Shown here piece by piece: positions 55,391-62,445 of a stretch of 64,000 nucleotides of DNA (position 1 is the first letter of the stretch; the number at the start of each line of letters is the position of its first letter). Position numbers and translations under genes: made by a program. Under the pieces are notes generated by a model. That model worked only from the letters and a program-made list of their open reading frames with translations, did not search any database and was not told the origin of the DNA. The stretch spans positions 21,714-85,713 of the forward strand of contig JAFYOS010000028.1 in NCBI GenBank assembly GCA_017560125.1. Direction: 5' to 3'. This DNA is from Bacteroidaceae bacterium (lineage in GTDB: Bacteria > Bacteroidota > Bacteroidia > Bacteroidales > Bacteroidaceae).

Positions 55391-55421
55391 TTGTTTATCT
55401 CTTTTATAATAACTAAATTTG
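55391..55421 (+). promoter_or_regulatory. Promoter of the glycogen operon
   Basis: TTG (55391-55393), 20 bases, TAAATTTG (55414-55421). A GCATGC-TGGC-GCATGC hairpin (55428-55443) sits in the 5' leader of about 55 bases. Otherwise 55255-55483 shows no gene. Confidence 0.65.
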
Positions 55422-55483
55422 AAAGGTGCATGCTGGCGCATGCCGTTAAAGAGGAAAAATATTAAAAGAAAATAGTTGTAAAG

Positions 55484-57415
55484 ATGAGTTATTTACGATT
55501 TGACAAGACTCTCATGACGAATCTCGAAGAGACACTTCCCAAGGAAATTCTTCGCACGAATCGTTCGGGAGCCTACCATTGTACCACCATTGTTGATTGT
55601 AATACAAGAAAATACCATGGTTTGCTTGTTATTCCAATTCCGGAAATAGACGACGAGAACCATGTGCTGCTTTCATCGCTCGATGCCACAGTAATACAAC
55701 ATGGTGCTGAGTTCAACCTGGGCCTTCACAAGTTCCGCGGTGATAACTATTCTCCAAGAGGTCATAAGTATATTCGTGAATATGAATGCGAGAAGGTGCC
55801 TACCACATGGTATCGTGTGGGTGGTGTCATCCTTAAGAAGGAAACTCTTTTCGAGCACTACGAAAATCGCATCCTTATACGCTATACATTGGTGGATGCA
55901 CATTCGGCGACAACGCTCCGTTTCCGCCCCTTCCTTGCTTTCAGAAGCGTGCGCCAATATACTCACGAGAATGCTGCTGCCAGCCGTGAGTACCAGTTGA
56001 TAGATAACGGTATCAAGACATGCATGTATCCCGGTTATCCCGATCTGTACATGCAGTTCAACAAGAAAAACGAATTTATTTTCCAGCCCGATTGGTATCG
56101 TGGCATGGAGTATCCCAAAGAACAGGAGAGAGGTTACGATTCGAACGAGGATCTCTACGTACCCGGATATTTCGAAATGGAGATAAAGAAGGGCGAGAGC
56201 ATTGTATTTGCAGCAGGCGTCAAGGAGGTCAAGACACGTAGTCTGAAAAAGACCTTCGAGGAGGAGATGGACGAGCGCACTCCGCGCGATAATTTCCAGC
56301 ACTGCTTGGTGAATGCGGCTCACCAGTTTACAAACCGTCAGAATGGCGAGGCCTATATCCTGGCCGGTTATCCCTGGTTCAAGTGCCGTGCGCGCGACAT
56401 GTTCATATCGTTGCCCGGATTGACCTTGGCTATCAACGAGCAGTTCAAGTACGACGAGGTGATGGTTACCGCATGTAAAGCTATACGCTCTTTCATCAGT
56501 GGCGAGGCCAATGACCTGAAGGTAACCGAAATGGAGCACCCCGACGTGTTGCTGTGGGCTGTATGGTGCATCCAGCAGTTCGCGAAAATGGTTTCCAAAG
56601 AGGAGTGCATCCAGAAATATGGCGATTTGCTCAAGGATATCATGGAGTACCTCTCTCAGGAGAAGCACCCCAACCTGTTCCTGCATGCCAACGGATTGCT
56701 CTATACAAATGGATACGACAAGGCTGTTACATGGATGAATTCCACAGCCAACGGTCGCCCCGTTATTCCCCGTACAGGTTATGTGGTCGAGATAAATGCG
56801 CTGTGGTACAATGCGCTTCGTTTCGTTGCTGACATCGCGGGCGAGGGTGCTTTCAGAGATAGCTTGAACGAGCTTGCCGATAGAGCTGCCGCTTCGTTTG
56901 TGGATACATTCCTCAACGAGCACGGATATCTGTTGGACTATGTCGATGGTCGCATGATGGACTGGAGCGTACGTCCCAATATGATATTTGCTGCGGCGTT
57001 CGACTATTCACCGCTGAATACACGCCAGAAGAAGGGCATCGTGGATATCTGCTCAAAAGAGCTGCTGACACCGAAGGGCTTGCGTTCGTTGAGCCCCAAG
57101 AGCGGTGGCTACAACCCTAACTACGTAGGTCCTCAGAGCCAGCGCGACTATGCTTACCATCAGGGTACCGCATGGCCTTGGTTGGCAGGTTTCTATTTCG
57201 AAGCATATCTGAAAATATACAAAATGAGCGCTCTCGGCTTCATTGAGCGCCACATGATTGGCTTCGAGGACGAGATGACCTCGCACTGCATCGGTTCAAT
57301 CCCCGAGCTGTTTGATGGCAACCCGCCGTTCAAAGGCCGTGGAGCTGTGTCGTTTGCAATGAACGTGGCCGAGATTCTTAGAACATTGTATTTATTGAAC
57401 AAGTATAACTATTGA
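55484..57415 (+). CDS. Glycogen debranching enzyme (amylo-alpha-1,6-glucosidase, GDE_C type)
   Basis: 643 residues, no signal peptide, cytosolic. N-terminal beta domain (about 1-230: TNRSGAYHCTTIVDCNTRKYHGLLVIP) followed by an (alpha/alpha)6 barrel (about 280-640) with AGYPWFKCRARDMFISLPGLTLAI, AVTWMNSTANGRPVIPRTGYVVEINALWYNA and YHQGTAWPWLAGFY, all typical of GDE_C. Asp in CRARDMF and Glu in VEINALW are candidate catalytic residues. It removes alpha-1,6 stubs from glycogen. First gene of the operon; the next gene follows 14 bases later. Confidence 0.93.
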   Translation: MSYLRFDKTLMTNLEETLPKEILRTNRSGAYHCTTIVDCNTRKYHGLLVIPIPEIDDENHVLLSSLDATVIQHGAEFNLGLHKFRGDNYSPRGHKYIREYECEKVPTTWYRVGGVILKKETLFEHYENRILIRYTLVDAHSATTLRFRPFLAFRSVRQYTHENAAASREYQLIDNGIKTCMYPGYPDLYMQFNKKNEFIFQPDWYRGMEYPKEQERGYDSNEDLYVPGYFEMEIKKGESIVFAAGVKEVKTRSLKKTFEEEMDERTPRDNFQHCLVNAAHQFTNRQNGEAYILAGYPWFKCRARDMFISLPGLTLAINEQFKYDEVMVTACKAIRSFISGEANDLKVTEMEHPDVLLWAVWCIQQFAKMVSKEECIQKYGDLLKDIMEYLSQEKHPNLFLHANGLLYTNGYDKAVTWMNSTANGRPVIPRTGYVVEINALWYNALRFVADIAGEGAFRDSLNELADRAAASFVDTFLNEHGYLLDYVDGRMMDWSVRPNMIFAAAFDYSPLNTRQKKGIVDICSKELLTPKGLRSLSPKSGGYNPNYVGPQSQRDYAYHQGTAWPWLAGFYFEAYLKIYKMSALGFIERHMIGFEDEMTSHCIGSIPELFDGNPPFKGRGAVSFAMNVAEILRTLYLLNKYNY

Positions 57416-57429
57416 TAGGAGGAACCGAT

Positions 57430-58698
57430 ATGAAAGTATTGATGTTTGGATGGGAATTCCCTCCCAAAATTTTAGGTGGTCTTGCGGTTGCTTCTTACGG
57501 TATAACAAAAGGTTTGAGCCTACAGGGTGATGTTGAAACAACATTCTGTCTGCCGAAGCCCACAGGAGAAGAAGAAAAATTCTTGAAAATTATAGGCATG
57601 AACCAGGTGCCTATCGTGTGGCGCGATGTGGATTACGACTATTTGAAATATCGTTTGCCCAACTACGTGACTCCCGAAGAGTATTACGGATTCCGCGACC
57701 ATATCTATGCCGATTTCTCGTACATGCATGTCAACGACCTTGGTTGCATGGAATTCGCAGGTGGATATCCGCAGAACCTTCACGACGAGATAAACAACTA
57801 TTCAATCATCGCCGGCGTCGTGGCACGCTCGCGCGAATTTGATATCATCCATGCCCACGACTGGTTGACATATCCTGCCGGCGTGCATGCCAAGATGGTC
57901 AGCGGAAAACCGTTGTGTATCCATGTGCATGCAACCGACTTCGACCGTTCGCGCGGACAGGTGAACCCCACGGTCTATTCAATCGAGAAGAACGGAATGG
58001 ATCATGCCGATTGCATCATGTGTGTGTCCGAATTGACACGACAGACCGTAATCAACCACTACCATCAGGATCCTCGCAAGTGTGTAGCCATGCACAATGC
58101 TGTGTATCCCCTCTCGCCCGAGCTCGATGCGATACCTCGCGTAGAGCACCCCAAAGAGAAGGTGGTTACATTCCTTGGTCGTATCACCATGCAGAAGGGC
58201 CCCGAGTACTTCGTCGAGGCTGCGGCGCTTGTCTTGAAGCGCACCAAGAACATACGCTTCGTCTTCGCCGGTTCGGGTGATATGTACGAAGCTATGGTGA
58301 ACCTTGCAGCTGAGCGTGGCATTGCCGACAGGTTCCATTTCCCCGGATTCCAGCGTGGCAAGCAGGTTTACGAGGCTTATAAGAACAGCGACGTCTTTGT
58401 GATGCCCTCTGTGTCGGAGCCCTTTGGTATTGCGCCTTTGGAGGCAATGCAGTGCGGTACGCCCTCTATTATCTCCAAGCAGTCGGGTTGTGGCGAGATT
58501 CTCTCCAATGTGATTAAAGTGGACTATTGGGATATAAACGCAATGGCCGACGCCATCTACTCGATATGTACCAATCCCGCGCTCTTCAAATATTTGCAGG
58601 AAGAGGGTAAGAAAGAGGTTGACGGCATCACCTGGGAGAAGGTCGGCTTGCGTCATCGCGCCATCTATGACGAATTAATTAGAAACAACAATAAATAA
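57430..58698 (+). CDS. GT4 glycogen-synthase-type glycosyltransferase
   Basis: 422 residues from ATG 57430. GT-B fold: N-terminal MFGWEFPPKILGGLAVASYG with the GG substrate loop, HAHDWLTYPAGVHAKM, HVHATDFDRSRG, C-terminal FLGRITMQKGPEYFVEAA and VSEPFGIAPLEAMQCGTPSI (the EX7E motif). It has the look of the GT4-like glycogen synthases of Bacteroidota. It would extend alpha-1,4-glucan from NDP-glucose. Lies between the debranching enzyme and the GH57-like gene, so it is probably the real synthase of this locus. Confidence 0.88.
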   Translation: MKVLMFGWEFPPKILGGLAVASYGITKGLSLQGDVETTFCLPKPTGEEEKFLKIIGMNQVPIVWRDVDYDYLKYRLPNYVTPEEYYGFRDHIYADFSYMHVNDLGCMEFAGGYPQNLHDEINNYSIIAGVVARSREFDIIHAHDWLTYPAGVHAKMVSGKPLCIHVHATDFDRSRGQVNPTVYSIEKNGMDHADCIMCVSELTRQTVINHYHQDPRKCVAMHNAVYPLSPELDAIPRVEHPKEKVVTFLGRITMQKGPEYFVEAAALVLKRTKNIRFVFAGSGDMYEAMVNLAAERGIADRFHFPGFQRGKQVYEAYKNSDVFVMPSVSEPFGIAPLEAMQCGTPSIISKQSGCGEILSNVIKVDYWDINAMADAIYSICTNPALFKYLQEEGKKEVDGITWEKVGLRHRAIYDELIRNNNK

Positions 58699-58709
58699 AA
58701 TAAATAGAT

Positions 58710-60044
58710 ATGAAAACAATCTGTCTTTATTTTGAGATACACAATATTATCAACCTGAAGCGCTATCGTTGTTTCGATATTGGTCGCGATCACTATTACT
58801 ACGATGACTATGAAAATGAGCGCACTATAAACGATGTAGCCGAGCGTTCATATATCCCTGCTTTGGGTGCATTGATAGAGATGGCCAAGAGCAACAACGG
58901 TGCATTCAAGGTGGCTCTCTCTGTTTCGGGTGTTGCTCTCGAGCAGCTCGAGACATACGCTCCCCGAGTAATTGAGCTGTTGCACGAATTGAACGAAACA
59001 GGTTGCGTGGAGTTCCTCTGCGAGCCCTATTCGCACGGCCTTTCTTCGTTGGCTAACGAAGATTGCTTCCGCGACGATGTAGAGCGCATGCGCGTTAAGG
59101 TTAAGCAGATGTTCGGCAAGGCACCCAAGGTGTTCCGTAACTCGAGCCTTATCTATTCTAACGAGATTGGTTCAATCATTGCCGATATGGGCTTCAAGGG
59201 TATCCTGACCGAGGGTGCTAAGCATGTGCTTGGTTGGAAGAGCGCCCACTATCTCTACCACTGTGCATACAACAGTAACCTGAAGGTGTTGTTGCGCGAC
59301 TATAAGCTGTCAGACGACATCAGCTTGCGATTCAATAACTCGGAGTGGAACGAGTATCCCCTGTTTGCCGATAAATATATCGGTTGGATAGCCGATATGC
59401 CCGAAGAGGAGCAGGTAATCAATATCTTCATGGAGCTTTCTGCTCTTGGTTTTGCGCAGCCCCTGTCGTCGAACATTCTCGAATTCATGAAGGCGCTTCC
59501 CATCTGCGCCAAGGAGCGTGGTATCACATTCTCGACCCCCACAGAGATTATCACCAAGCTGAAATCGGTGGATGCAGTGGATGTTCCCTATCCCATGTCG
59601 TGGACAGACGAGGAGAGAGATGTCAGCAGCTTCTTGGGTAATATTCTCCAGCGCGAGGCGTTCGATAAGCTCTACAGCGTGGCAGAGCGCGTACTCATGT
59701 GCCAGGATCGTCGCATCAAGCAGGATTGGGATTACTTGCAGGCAAGCAATAACTTCCGCTTCATGACCACCAAGAACACAGGTATGCACATCGAGCGTGG
59801 TATCTACGACTCACCTTTCGATGCCTTTACCAACTACATGAATATCGTTGGTGATTTCATCAGCCGTGTAAATGCGCAGTTCCCCGAGGGTATCGACAAC
59901 GAGGAACTGAACTCATTGCTCAAGATGATTTCTAATCAGAACGAAGAGATTGTGGCTCTCAACAAGGAGATTGCGGCCCTCAAGAAGGGTGCAGCGCCTA
60001 AAGAGAAACCCGCAAGAAAATGCAAGAAAAAGAGCGAGGAATAA
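58710..60044 (+). CDS. GH57-fold protein with degenerate catalytic motifs
   Basis: 444 residues. The frame aligns along the whole length with GH57 alpha-amylases from this phylum (MKTICLYFEIH start, FRNSSLIYSNEIG, TEGAKHVLGWKS, MSWTDEERDVSSFLGN). Nucleophile-site Glu168 in LTEGA is kept. But region 1 reads HNII where family members have HQP, and region 4 (239-250) reads IFMELSALGFAQ where family members have FMDYETFGEHQ. The acid Asp is replaced by Glu242, and the Gly-Glu-His triplet is gone. A Lys-rich tail (AAPKEKPARKCKKKSEE) follows a coiled coil. I infer an impaired or non-catalytic glycan-binding partner in the glycogen operon. Confidence 0.85.
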   Translation: MKTICLYFEIHNIINLKRYRCFDIGRDHYYYDDYENERTINDVAERSYIPALGALIEMAKSNNGAFKVALSVSGVALEQLETYAPRVIELLHELNETGCVEFLCEPYSHGLSSLANEDCFRDDVERMRVKVKQMFGKAPKVFRNSSLIYSNEIGSIIADMGFKGILTEGAKHVLGWKSAHYLYHCAYNSNLKVLLRDYKLSDDISLRFNNSEWNEYPLFADKYIGWIADMPEEEQVINIFMELSALGFAQPLSSNILEFMKALPICAKERGITFSTPTEIITKLKSVDAVDVPYPMSWTDEERDVSSFLGNILQREAFDKLYSVAERVLMCQDRRIKQDWDYLQASNNFRFMTTKNTGMHIERGIYDSPFDAFTNYMNIVGDFISRVNAQFPEGIDNEELNSLLKMISNQNEEIVALNKEIAALKKGAAPKEKPARKCKKKSEE

Positions 60045-61570: not shown

Positions 61571-62377
61571 TCAACGGAACTTGTCGTAGAACTCGTTGCA
61601 TGCAGCCACGTAGTTCTCCTCTGTTTGATAGGGCAGAACCTCCTTGCCCAATTCCTTAGCGTATGATATGAGCGACTCGGGTATATCGGGTGAATTTACG
61701 ATTACGCCGTCGCTGTATCTGATGGCAAGCTTGGCGAGTTCTTCGTATGTAACAGGGGTGTTGATGCCCTCTGTAAGCGACTCATCCATGTCCTTGCACA
61801 GAAGTTTTTTGATGATCGATTCATCAAGCGCATTATTGAAGTTTGTGCTATACAGCGAGAAGATTACCTTTGAATCGCGGAACGAAGGTTCCTCGCGGTA
61901 TGCGCTCTTTATATACAATGGAGCCAATGCCGATATCCAACCATGGCAGTGGATTACGTTGGGACACCAACGGAATTTTTTTACTGTTTCCAGTACGCCA
62001 CGCGAGAAGAATATCGCTCTTTCGTCGTTGTCGCTATATTCGCAACCGTTTTCATCCTCGGTCATCTGACGGTTCTGGAAGTAGTCGTCGTTGTCGATGA
62101 AATATACCTGCATGCGTGCCGACTGCAACGAAGCCACCTTGATAATCATAGGATGGTCTGTCTCGTCGATTATCAGGTTCATACCGGTGAGGCGCTGCAC
62201 CTCGTGCAACTGGTTGCGTCTTTCGTTTATGAAACCCCACTTGGGAGTGAAAATTCTTATTTCGCGACCGCGCTCCTGTGTAGCCTGCGGCAATGTTCTA
62301 CCAATTTTTGAAATTTCCGATTCCGGAACAAAAGGTGTGATTTCTTGTGTGATAAATAATATTCTGCTAGTTTCCAT
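61571..62377 (-). CDS. Half-length GT5 glycogen-synthase-like protein
   Basis: 268 residues from ATG 62377; a longer start (62416) lies in the -7 box. It covers only the N-terminal Rossmann half of GT5 synthases (METSRILFITQEITPFVPESEI, NVIHCHGWISALAPLYIKSAY, SDGVIVNSPDI), whose normal length is about 470-480. The KxGGL glucosyl-donor loop is replaced by SKIGRTLPQ. The EX7E acceptor half is entirely missing. No stop or frameshift remnant lies beyond, and its promoter is intact, so it looks like a kept domain, perhaps a regulator or glycan-binding factor of glycogen synthesis rather than a synthase. Confidence 0.82.
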   Translation of the reverse strand: METSRILFITQEITPFVPESEISKIGRTLPQATQERGREIRIFTPKWGFINERRNQLHEVQRLTGMNLIIDETDHPMIIKVASLQSARMQVYFIDNDDYFQNRQMTEDENGCEYSDNDERAIFFSRGVLETVKKFRWCPNVIHCHGWISALAPLYIKSAYREEPSFRDSKVIFSLYSTNFNNALDESIIKKLLCKDMDESLTEGINTPVTYEELAKLAIRYSDGVIVNSPDIPESLISYAKELGKEVLPYQTEENYVAACNEFYDKFR

Positions 62378-62413
62378 TGTCGTTCTGTTTTGCGAATGTA
62401 GTCCGCAACCCTG

Positions 62414-62445
62414 CAAAGATACTCAAAATTCAGCAGATACACAAA
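62414..62445 (-). promoter_or_regulatory. Promoter of the half-GT5 gene
   Basis: TTTG (62445-62442), 20 bases, TATCTTTG (62421-62414) on the minus strand. It rules out ATG 62416. Confidence 0.7.

Follow-up and report, generated by a model that had tools for sequence, protein, structure and literature searches.

The window analysed here, meaning the whole stretch of 64,000 nucleotides from a contig of a Bacteroidaceae bacterium, contains three genes on one strand in the order GH133 - GT4 - GH57, the last of which lies 11 bases past GT4 (Table 1). Its frame (58710..60044, + strand, from the frame listing and translation of the window) encodes a protein of 444 aa, and beyond a hairpin that is a probable two-way terminator follows a convergent DUF4270/BamH-like gene. 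The original prediction had placed the GH57 gene between strong operon signals in a synthase/debrancher operon. This is partly borne out, by the strength of the hairpin, though the consensus scan missed it, and by the GH133 and GT4 genes close upstream, but not by promoter-like sites, of which the scan gave 5 against a shuffle mean of 7.2 and thus no excess. The same setting also holds for relatives with an intact catalytic pair, so this gene arrangement is older than the loss of catalytic residues described below.

Table 1. Features of the GH133-GT4-GH57 locus and its surroundings, in coordinates of the window
Feature	Position	Strand	Basis or remark
GH133-GT4-GH57 block, apparently exchanged as a unit	55401..59900	+	protein and DNA identity comparisons
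GH133-type glycogen debranching enzyme (GDE_N + GDE_C)	55484..57415	+	Pfam
GT4 glycosyltransferase, probable alpha-glucan synthase partner	57427..58698	+	Pfam, co-occurrence; ATG 57427 used, TTG 57412 also open
GH57 alpha-amylase-like protein, nucleophile and acid lost	58710..60044	+	profile match, alignment with relatives
Conserved region 1, reads HNII, residues 11-14 (intact: HQPF/HQPY and similar)	58740..58751	+	translation and alignment
Conserved region 3, reads FRNSSL (intact: FRNTEL)	59133..59150	+	translation, alignment and 1k1w profile
Ser146 in place of the nucleophile Glu	59145-59147	+	alignment and 1k1w profile
Glu168, originally predicted as nucleophile; outside region 3	59211..59213	+	conserved whether relatives are intact or degenerate
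Conserved region 4, reads FMELSALGFAQ, residues 240-250 (intact: FMDYETFGEHQ)	59427..59459	+	translation, alignment and 1k1w profile
Glu242 in place of the acid Asp	59433-59435	+	alignment and 1k1w profile
Clade-specific tail motif DNEELNSLLKMISNQ, residues 396-410, opening a heptad-like segment to about residue 426	59895..59939	+	motif scan; heptads by eye
Hairpin between convergent genes, 16-bp stem, 3-base loop	60066..60100	.	-20.7 kcal/mol, z -6.7
281-aa protein equal to the N-terminal half of a GT5 glycogen synthase: PF08323 present, C-terminal glycosyltransferase domain missing	61571..62416	-	Pfam

The predicted membership of the protein in GH57 is confirmed by a clear match to PF03065 (Glyco_hydro_57; E 4.9e-55, 187.3 bits against a cut-off of 21.2, residues 28-293), and a profile search of the genome's contigs revealed no second PF03065 match. 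It had no match among the NCBIfam models, those for branching enzymes included, and when 16 intact relatives were compared with the branching models, only two models were matched (by 3 and 1 members) with a best score of 22.9 bits, far under the cut-off of 920. By itself the window protein found nothing beyond chance matches in the PDB, and a profile of the 16 relatives with complete motifs matched weakly, reaching four GH57 chains at E 0.0003 to 0.034 and one unrelated chain at 0.09. Among the GH57 chains is 1k1w, a Thermococcus 4-alpha-glucanotransferase, in which residues 119-124 align with the FRNTEL of intact relatives (Glu146 on Glu123; i-Evalue 0.012 for this stretch) and the LDYETFG of the profile aligns around residue 214 (position 242 on Asp214; -2.5 bits for this part alone), so that the mapping leans also on the conserved-region motifs, with which the weak profile matches agree. 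We take Glu123 and Asp214 to be the catalytic residues of this enzyme. GH57 proteins in general use a Glu on strand 4 as nucleophile and an Asp on strand 7 as proton donor (PMC6037648).

Measured against this scheme, the window protein departs in regions 1, 3 and 4. Region 1 reads HNI in place of HQP, with an Asn at the second place that occurs in 3 of 86 aligned rows, two of which are the window's own sequence. Region 3, aligned to 1k1w via intact relatives, has Ser146 where GH57 enzymes have the nucleophilic Glu, and region 4, aligned in the same way, has Glu242 for the acid Asp, together with Ala249 where intact relatives have His, so that the GEH triplet is gone. The two tyrosines that close region 5 of GH57 alpha-amylases (PMC6037648) would correspond, if our equation with positions 35-36 of the published logo is right, to the Tyr-Tyr of intact rows that is Arg350-Phe351 in the window. 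The original prediction had read regions 1 and 4 exactly as the translation does, Glu242 included, but was mistaken in holding that the nucleophile stays: the Glu168 that it named lies in LTEGAKH, a motif common to intact and degenerate relatives alike. With FRNSSL and its Ser146, the window lacks the nucleophile too, so the alignment indicates the loss of both catalytic residues rather than of one. Neither Glu146 nor Asp242 is present in any of the 80 close relatives (69-91% identity) among the matches listed, which by alignment is more than chance would produce.

Proteins of this kind are known, as the original prediction had stated. Sequences closest to GH57 alpha-amylases with one or both catalytic residues missing have been described as "alpha-amylase-like" (AAMY-like), comprising 126 sequences of which 66 are bacterial (PMC6037648, citing Janecek and Blesak 2011), and their analysis was deferred by the authors. 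As judged from its sequence against this published description of the group, the window protein, near alpha-amylases and substituted at its catalytic residues, belongs there. It shares the loss of catalytic residues and closely matches a listed length (443 versus 444 aa), while the accessible description does not give the operon context, tail and order of loss that we found for its relatives (PMC6037648). The string "bacteroid" was not found in the main text of that paper. The window protein very probably is not a hydrolase working by the GH57 mechanism. Bacteroides examples of AAMY-like proteins are reportedly named in the 2011 work of Janecek and Blesak.

Relatives of the GH57 protein were found in 273 of 295 Bacteroidales genomes, and loci were sampled from a spread of these plus five genomes from other orders of the class. 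From these, 86 rows were placed in a tree built by a quick method (26 of 82 inner branches below 80), after taking in 20 of the 80 loci L002-L081 and dropping duplicates (L001, L115, L118, L119, L176-L179), near-duplicates (L124-L126, L128, L132, L134, L136) and other GH57 types (L109, L183, L184). The Glu/Asp pair is intact in 21 of the 86 rows, all five from other orders among them, and 20 Glu/Asp rows are 38-50% identical to the window protein; the other 65 rows depart from it at one or both positions. In one clade, comprising 58 rows and supported by an SH-aLRT of 100, Asp is absent from the acid site throughout. Within it, 26 rows that include the window form an inner group (SH-aLRT 100; Bacteroides, Phocaeicola and Prevotellaceae records) in which both residues are lost, with Ser, Gly, Asn or Asp at the nucleophile position and Glu, Gln, Arg or Asn at the acid position. 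The remaining 32 clade rows have lost the acid, in place of which they carry Asn (26 rows), Thr (3), Gly (2) or Ser (1); all but two of them keep Glu146, and motif pairs like FRNTEL with FMNYETLGELQ illustrate this intermediate state. On this alignment and tree the loss is stepwise, with the acid going first while the nucleophile was mostly kept and both being lost later in the inner 26 rows. Altered residues also occur in 7 of the 28 rows that fall outside the clade (L161, L164, L170, L172, L173, L175 and L180, with L173 at the nucleophile only), some of them long branches of unsure placement, and parsimony demands at least six changes of acid state and four of nucleophile state on the tree.

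Unusual residues at the two catalytic positions were also seen in L163 (Asp/Ser), L172 (Gln/Glu), L173 (His/Asp) and L181 (Asp/Gly), and these lineages suggest that loss occurred repeatedly within the same operon. Five GH57 spans contain a stop (L088, L138, L148, L155 and L172), which in the printed tails lies behind the conserved body, and there the match may overrun the true gene end. One genome from outside the family has two GH57 copies (L117 at G355:C23 and L145 at G355:C3), one fully degenerate and 75% identical to the window, the other of the acid-lost type and 54% identical, reflecting either transfer or contamination.

The pattern of change around the active site differs between the two steps. 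Among 157 positions that are near-invariant in 17 intact rows (L088, L090, L168 and L171 having been dropped from the 21 Glu/Asp rows), only five are kept by 10 or fewer of the 32 acid-lost rows outside the inner group, namely D242, H249, V10, F246 and Y362, and by the conservation cut-offs used D242 is the sole conserved acidic residue lost in them. Read from conservation, a loss centred on D242 in this way is what inactivates a glycosidase yet spares its cleft. In the inner 26 rows 39 of the 157 positions are lost, 24 are mixed and 94 are kept in at least 25 rows, the last including H11, E101, E105, Y107, H109, R143, N144 and E168 in or near conserved regions; P13, R15, T106, N180 and Y350, in or beside conserved regions, are changed. 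Because each of the 26 rows carries the same set of new residues (E9, L52, H180, D197, L206, F219, L243, N255, L257 and N348), the site seems to have been remodelled and not left to decay; when a different rule is applied to 31 loci, which form a wider set, the newly fixed residues that pass are N197D, F206L and F257L alone.

These data bear directly on whether the protein is still an enzyme. That it could be a working GH57 alpha-amylase, with acid or nucleophile supplied from another position, is encouraged by its good overall match to the family profile and by the acids gained in the window's own group (positions 9, 42, 117, 123, 197, 212, 233, 291 and 341). Yet regions 3 and 4 align through the intermediates mentioned above, and the acid-lost rows outside this group gained no conserved acid besides position 116 and the tail, so we consider a working amylase very unlikely. 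Somewhat less improbable, though still quite unlikely, is a catalyst of a different mechanism such as a transferase or lyase without the classical acid, in which Glu242, Glu9 and Asp197 would take part. The presence of Glu242 in 23 and of Glu9 and Asp197 in all 26 rows of the window's group speaks for this idea, as does the retention of Glu146 in 30 of the 32 acid-lost rows. Against it, both catalytic positions vary within the 26-row group, as a working pair should not, and the acid-lost rows outside this group gained conserved acids only at the places just named; alpha-amylases moreover usually have Glu or Gln at the first position of region 1 (PMC6037648), which would be the equivalent of residue 9.

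All members of the acid-lost clade share a C-terminal tail in which a motif of the type EEL..L..I.NQ precedes a heptad-like segment and, in most cases, an end rich in Lys and Ala. A relaxed form of the motif is found in 58 of 58 clade rows, in none of the 28 other rows and in all of L002-L081, and a stricter pattern in 56 clade rows, again none of the others and 77 of the 80 loci; same-genus relatives have the variant EELGALKQVIENQ and similar ones, which a narrower pattern misses. Since several intact relatives have heptad-like tails without the clade motif, the tail type as such may predate the loss, and only the motif is specific to the clade.

Despite the loss of its catalytic residues, which might by itself indicate an ordinary gene in decay, the GH57 gene is clearly maintained. 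Its frame is open in the window, and among the matches listed none of the 80 close relatives (69-91% identity) has an inner stop or is a disabled copy. The ratio dN/dS is 0.03-0.11 in the six least-saturated same-genus pairs, which are of Gly/Asn type and so measure the pseudoenzyme in general and not the window's own Ser/Glu form; in the same pairs it is 0.006-0.063 for GT4 and 0.029-0.072 for GH133. Pairs inside a genus were used because the window itself is near saturation against its same-genus relatives, and the NG86 method gave no usable ratio for the window versus L002, L003, L004, L007 and L012, where synonymous sites are saturated. Between window and L002 the GH57 genes differ by 0.08 non-synonymous and 0.81 synonymous changes per site. 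Decay is therefore exceedingly improbable, and the original prediction was right that the gene is under selection; its broader claim that the canonical machinery is lost while selection continues stands as well, since no row of the window's 26-row group retains either catalytic residue, except for the part about the retained nucleophile.

The GH57 protein is consistently paired with GT4. All 158 loci of this GH57 type (151 distinct proteins, with six places counted twice) have GT4 upstream, on the GH57 strand and no more than 5 kb away, and in 155 of them the centres of the GT4 and GH57 matches are 1.2-1.4 kb apart. GH133 is present in 151 loci; among the seven without a match, L050, L075 and L078 end before GH133, L138 has a short flank only, and for L082 and L083 the gene is visible in the wider stretches L177 and L178, while in L090 it is absent also from the wider stretch L205. 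No GT4 orthologue was detected in any of the 20 tested genomes (out of 22) of the order that have no GH57 relative, where the best match had 29% identity (E 5.7e-27), as compared to 47-70% identity in five tested genomes of the order with such a relative; one genome of another class without a GH57 match gave weak GT4 matches only.

Branch lengths on a fixed topology were calculated for 63 loci with all three genes, leaving out long or odd sequences (L163, L168, L170-L173 and L175) and those with stops in the translated span (L148, L155, L159 and L197). The branch of acid loss is the longest inner branch of GT4 (0.668 of 14.85, with the next at 0.564) and the second longest of both GH57 (0.384 of 17.51) and GH133 (0.547 of 24.75), corresponding to 4.5%, 2.2% and 2.2% of total tree length, respectively. 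As it is long in all three proteins, part of the change in GT4 may only reflect time. The branch on which the nucleophile was lost ranks first in GH57 (0.397); in GT4 (0.176) and GH133 (0.191) it does not.

What GT4 itself does is suggested by the glycogen genes of the source genome. This genome has a GlgB-like branching enzyme with CBM48 (L190) but no match to the glycogen phosphorylase family PF00343, of which the control Bacteroides ihuae has one, and its only strong GT5 match is the half-length protein downstream of the operon (Table 1). Bacteroidota have been reported to be without GlgC, and Bacteroides fragilis to store an intracellular polysaccharide (PMC10395257). Because of these two reports and because the sole strong GT5 match covers only the N-terminal half of a synthase, GT4 is a fair candidate for the glycogen synthase, though below the cut-off of the nearest synthase model: its best NCBIfam model is glgA_Coryne at 115.9 bits against a cut-off of 302.4. 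Its matches among solved structures include 6tvp, an alpha-maltose-1-phosphate synthase (E 2.6e-15). For archaea, the role of GT4 in glycogen metabolism has been flagged as needing clarification (PMC11046441). The half-GT5 protein may be a second non-catalytic glycogen protein; it is also found near the operon in several other Bacteroidaceae, with 57-84% identity.

Taken with the pairing, the sequence data lead us to propose, at about even confidence, that the window protein is a pseudoenzyme acting as a non-hydrolytic, alpha-glucan-binding partner of GT4. Its old cleft, in which many conserved residues are left, would still hold an alpha-glucan chain, the coiled-coil-type tail would oligomerise the protein or dock it, possibly in physical contact with GT4, and acceptor chains would thereby be kept near the synthase and the GH133 debrancher. 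The length of the acid-loss branch in GT4 and the apparent exchange of just these three genes together also speak for this reading. The role of glucan-binding scaffold or regulator that the original prediction had offered would fit this evidence. Glucan binding may, however, have been lost too in the window's group, given the changes at P13, R15, T106, N180 and Y350. The protein would then act purely through protein-protein contact, as a regulator of GT4 and/or GH133 or as a factor in their assembly, with glucan binding wholly gone and the barrel reduced to a stable carrier of the tail. The 39 near-invariant positions lost in the inner group, many of them beside both catalytic sites, the tail motif present throughout the clade and the pairing with GT4 would all agree with such a role, while the 94 positions kept in at least 25 rows, with residues of the conserved regions among them, argue otherwise, leaving it a doubtful though appreciable prospect. 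We can also imagine, but think it unlikely, that the glycogen of Bacteroidales is made by a GT4 synthase in obligate complex with the non-cutting GH57 subunit, which would present the acceptor chain in place of the priming or chain-holding functions of other systems and whose fold would have been converted stepwise, by acid loss and fixation of the docking tail and then by remodelling of the site.

Work on Sulfolobus acidocaldarius shows that synthesis can be served by a GH57 protein encoded next to a synthase: amyA is co-transcribed there with glgA, and deletion of amyA abolished glycogen accumulation, which complementation restored (PMC8158581). Sulfolobus AmyA is a GH57 amylase according to PMC11046441 and is thought by its authors to hydrolyse glycogen (PMC8158581), so the Sulfolobus case resembles the window in gene neighbourhood but differs in that its protein is thought to be active, and the parallel may rest on enzyme activity. 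Literature on Bacteroides itself offers one point against a non-cutting protein. From the listing of BT_4303 as GH133, we take BT_4305 of B. thetaiotaomicron to be the probable orthologue of the window protein; elsewhere in the literature, the tags BT4303-BT4305 appear in one proteomics row and in a paper that by its title is on Pseudomonas. BT_4305, a GH57 protein, is tabled with Glc-alpha-1-4 specificity (PMC12834350), which, if it rests on an assay, counts in favour of a working amylase.

Several features of the locus thus have precedents. Both GH57 proteins without catalytic residues (PMC6037648) and archaeal clusters of GT4, GH133 and GH57 (PMC11046441) are already known, and in the Picrophilus GT4-GH133-GH57 cluster a GH57 gene lies beside GT4 and GH133 just as in the window (PMC11046441). 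Intact Bacteroidota relatives (e.g., L158, L084, L160 and L086) have the same gene order and neighbours as the window but, unlike it, complete HQP, FRNTEL and FMDYETFGEHQ motifs and no EEL..NQ tail motif. PoGH57 of Pontibacter sp. SGAir0037 is another Bacteroidota GH57 protein near glycogen genes; unlike the window protein, it is a predicted DUF3536 protein with HGHFY in region 1, a GlgE-type locus and low hydrolase/transferase activity (PMC11206854), and its description sets it apart as what is probably another branch of GH57. Neither stepwise loss nor the tail motif, the GT4 pairing in Bacteroidales or block exchange was found in the literature searched, which consisted mostly of papers outside subscription, and no literature was found there that joins pseudoenzyme, glycoside hydrolase, glycogen and bacteroid. 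An amylase fold of gut Bacteroidales that has lost both cutting residues, but is strongly selected for and encoded directly after a probable glycogen-making enzyme, suggests a non-cutting helper of glycogen storage. A conserved non-catalytic partner of GT4, if true, would point to the missing synthase together with a supporting protein, and the graded series of intact, acid-lost and remodelled forms in one operon makes the change from enzyme to pseudoenzyme directly testable.

The three genes also have a history different from that of their surroundings. Compared to L070, the flanking proteins of the window are 92% (KdsA), 81% (BamH-like), 84% (GT5 half), 87% (PanC) and 95% (PanD) identical, with only DUF5686 at 63%, whereas GH133, GT4 and GH57 reach 67%, 71% and 70%. 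Conversely, L002, a Bacteroides MAG of 40% GC, shares 89%, 95% and 91% identity in these three proteins, and of nine other window genes tested DUF5686 alone matches there, at 33%. At the DNA level, identity to L002 is 69-86% in 300-base steps over 55401-59900 and at most 51% outside, while identity to L070 is 60-74% in the operon, mostly 59-74% upstream and mostly 71-85% downstream, so that the contrast with L070 is clear in DNA downstream only. Against ten same-genus genomes, protein identity is 62-69% for GH57 and GH133 and 71-73% for GT4, as opposed to 88-89% for KdsA, 89% for PanD, 74-78% for PanC and 70-75% for the GT5 half; since the fast-evolving BamH-like protein (48-65%) and DUF5686 (45-63%) are also low in these genomes, not every flank speaks for exchange. 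Bacteroides fragilis (L030) is 73-78% identical to the window in the operon proteins and 37-70% in the flanks. The simplest reading of these identities seems to be that the three genes were replaced together and in place, in the lineage of the window or in its relatives, by exchange between dissimilar Bacteroidaceae.

The low operon identity to the ten same-genus genomes and a bin contamination of 6.4% raised the suspicion that the window contig is a binning contaminant, which we rejected. Of five further stretches of the genome, four share the tetranucleotide signature of the window (0.88-0.92) and L208 is lower at 0.71, a 976-aa protein of the window is nearest to the same genus (57-64% versus 42-48% identity, with one of six same-genus genomes giving no match), and GlgB on another contig follows the genus as well (79-82% versus 68-76%). 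The ten same-genus genomes are of the Gly type at the nucleophile site, where the window has Ser.
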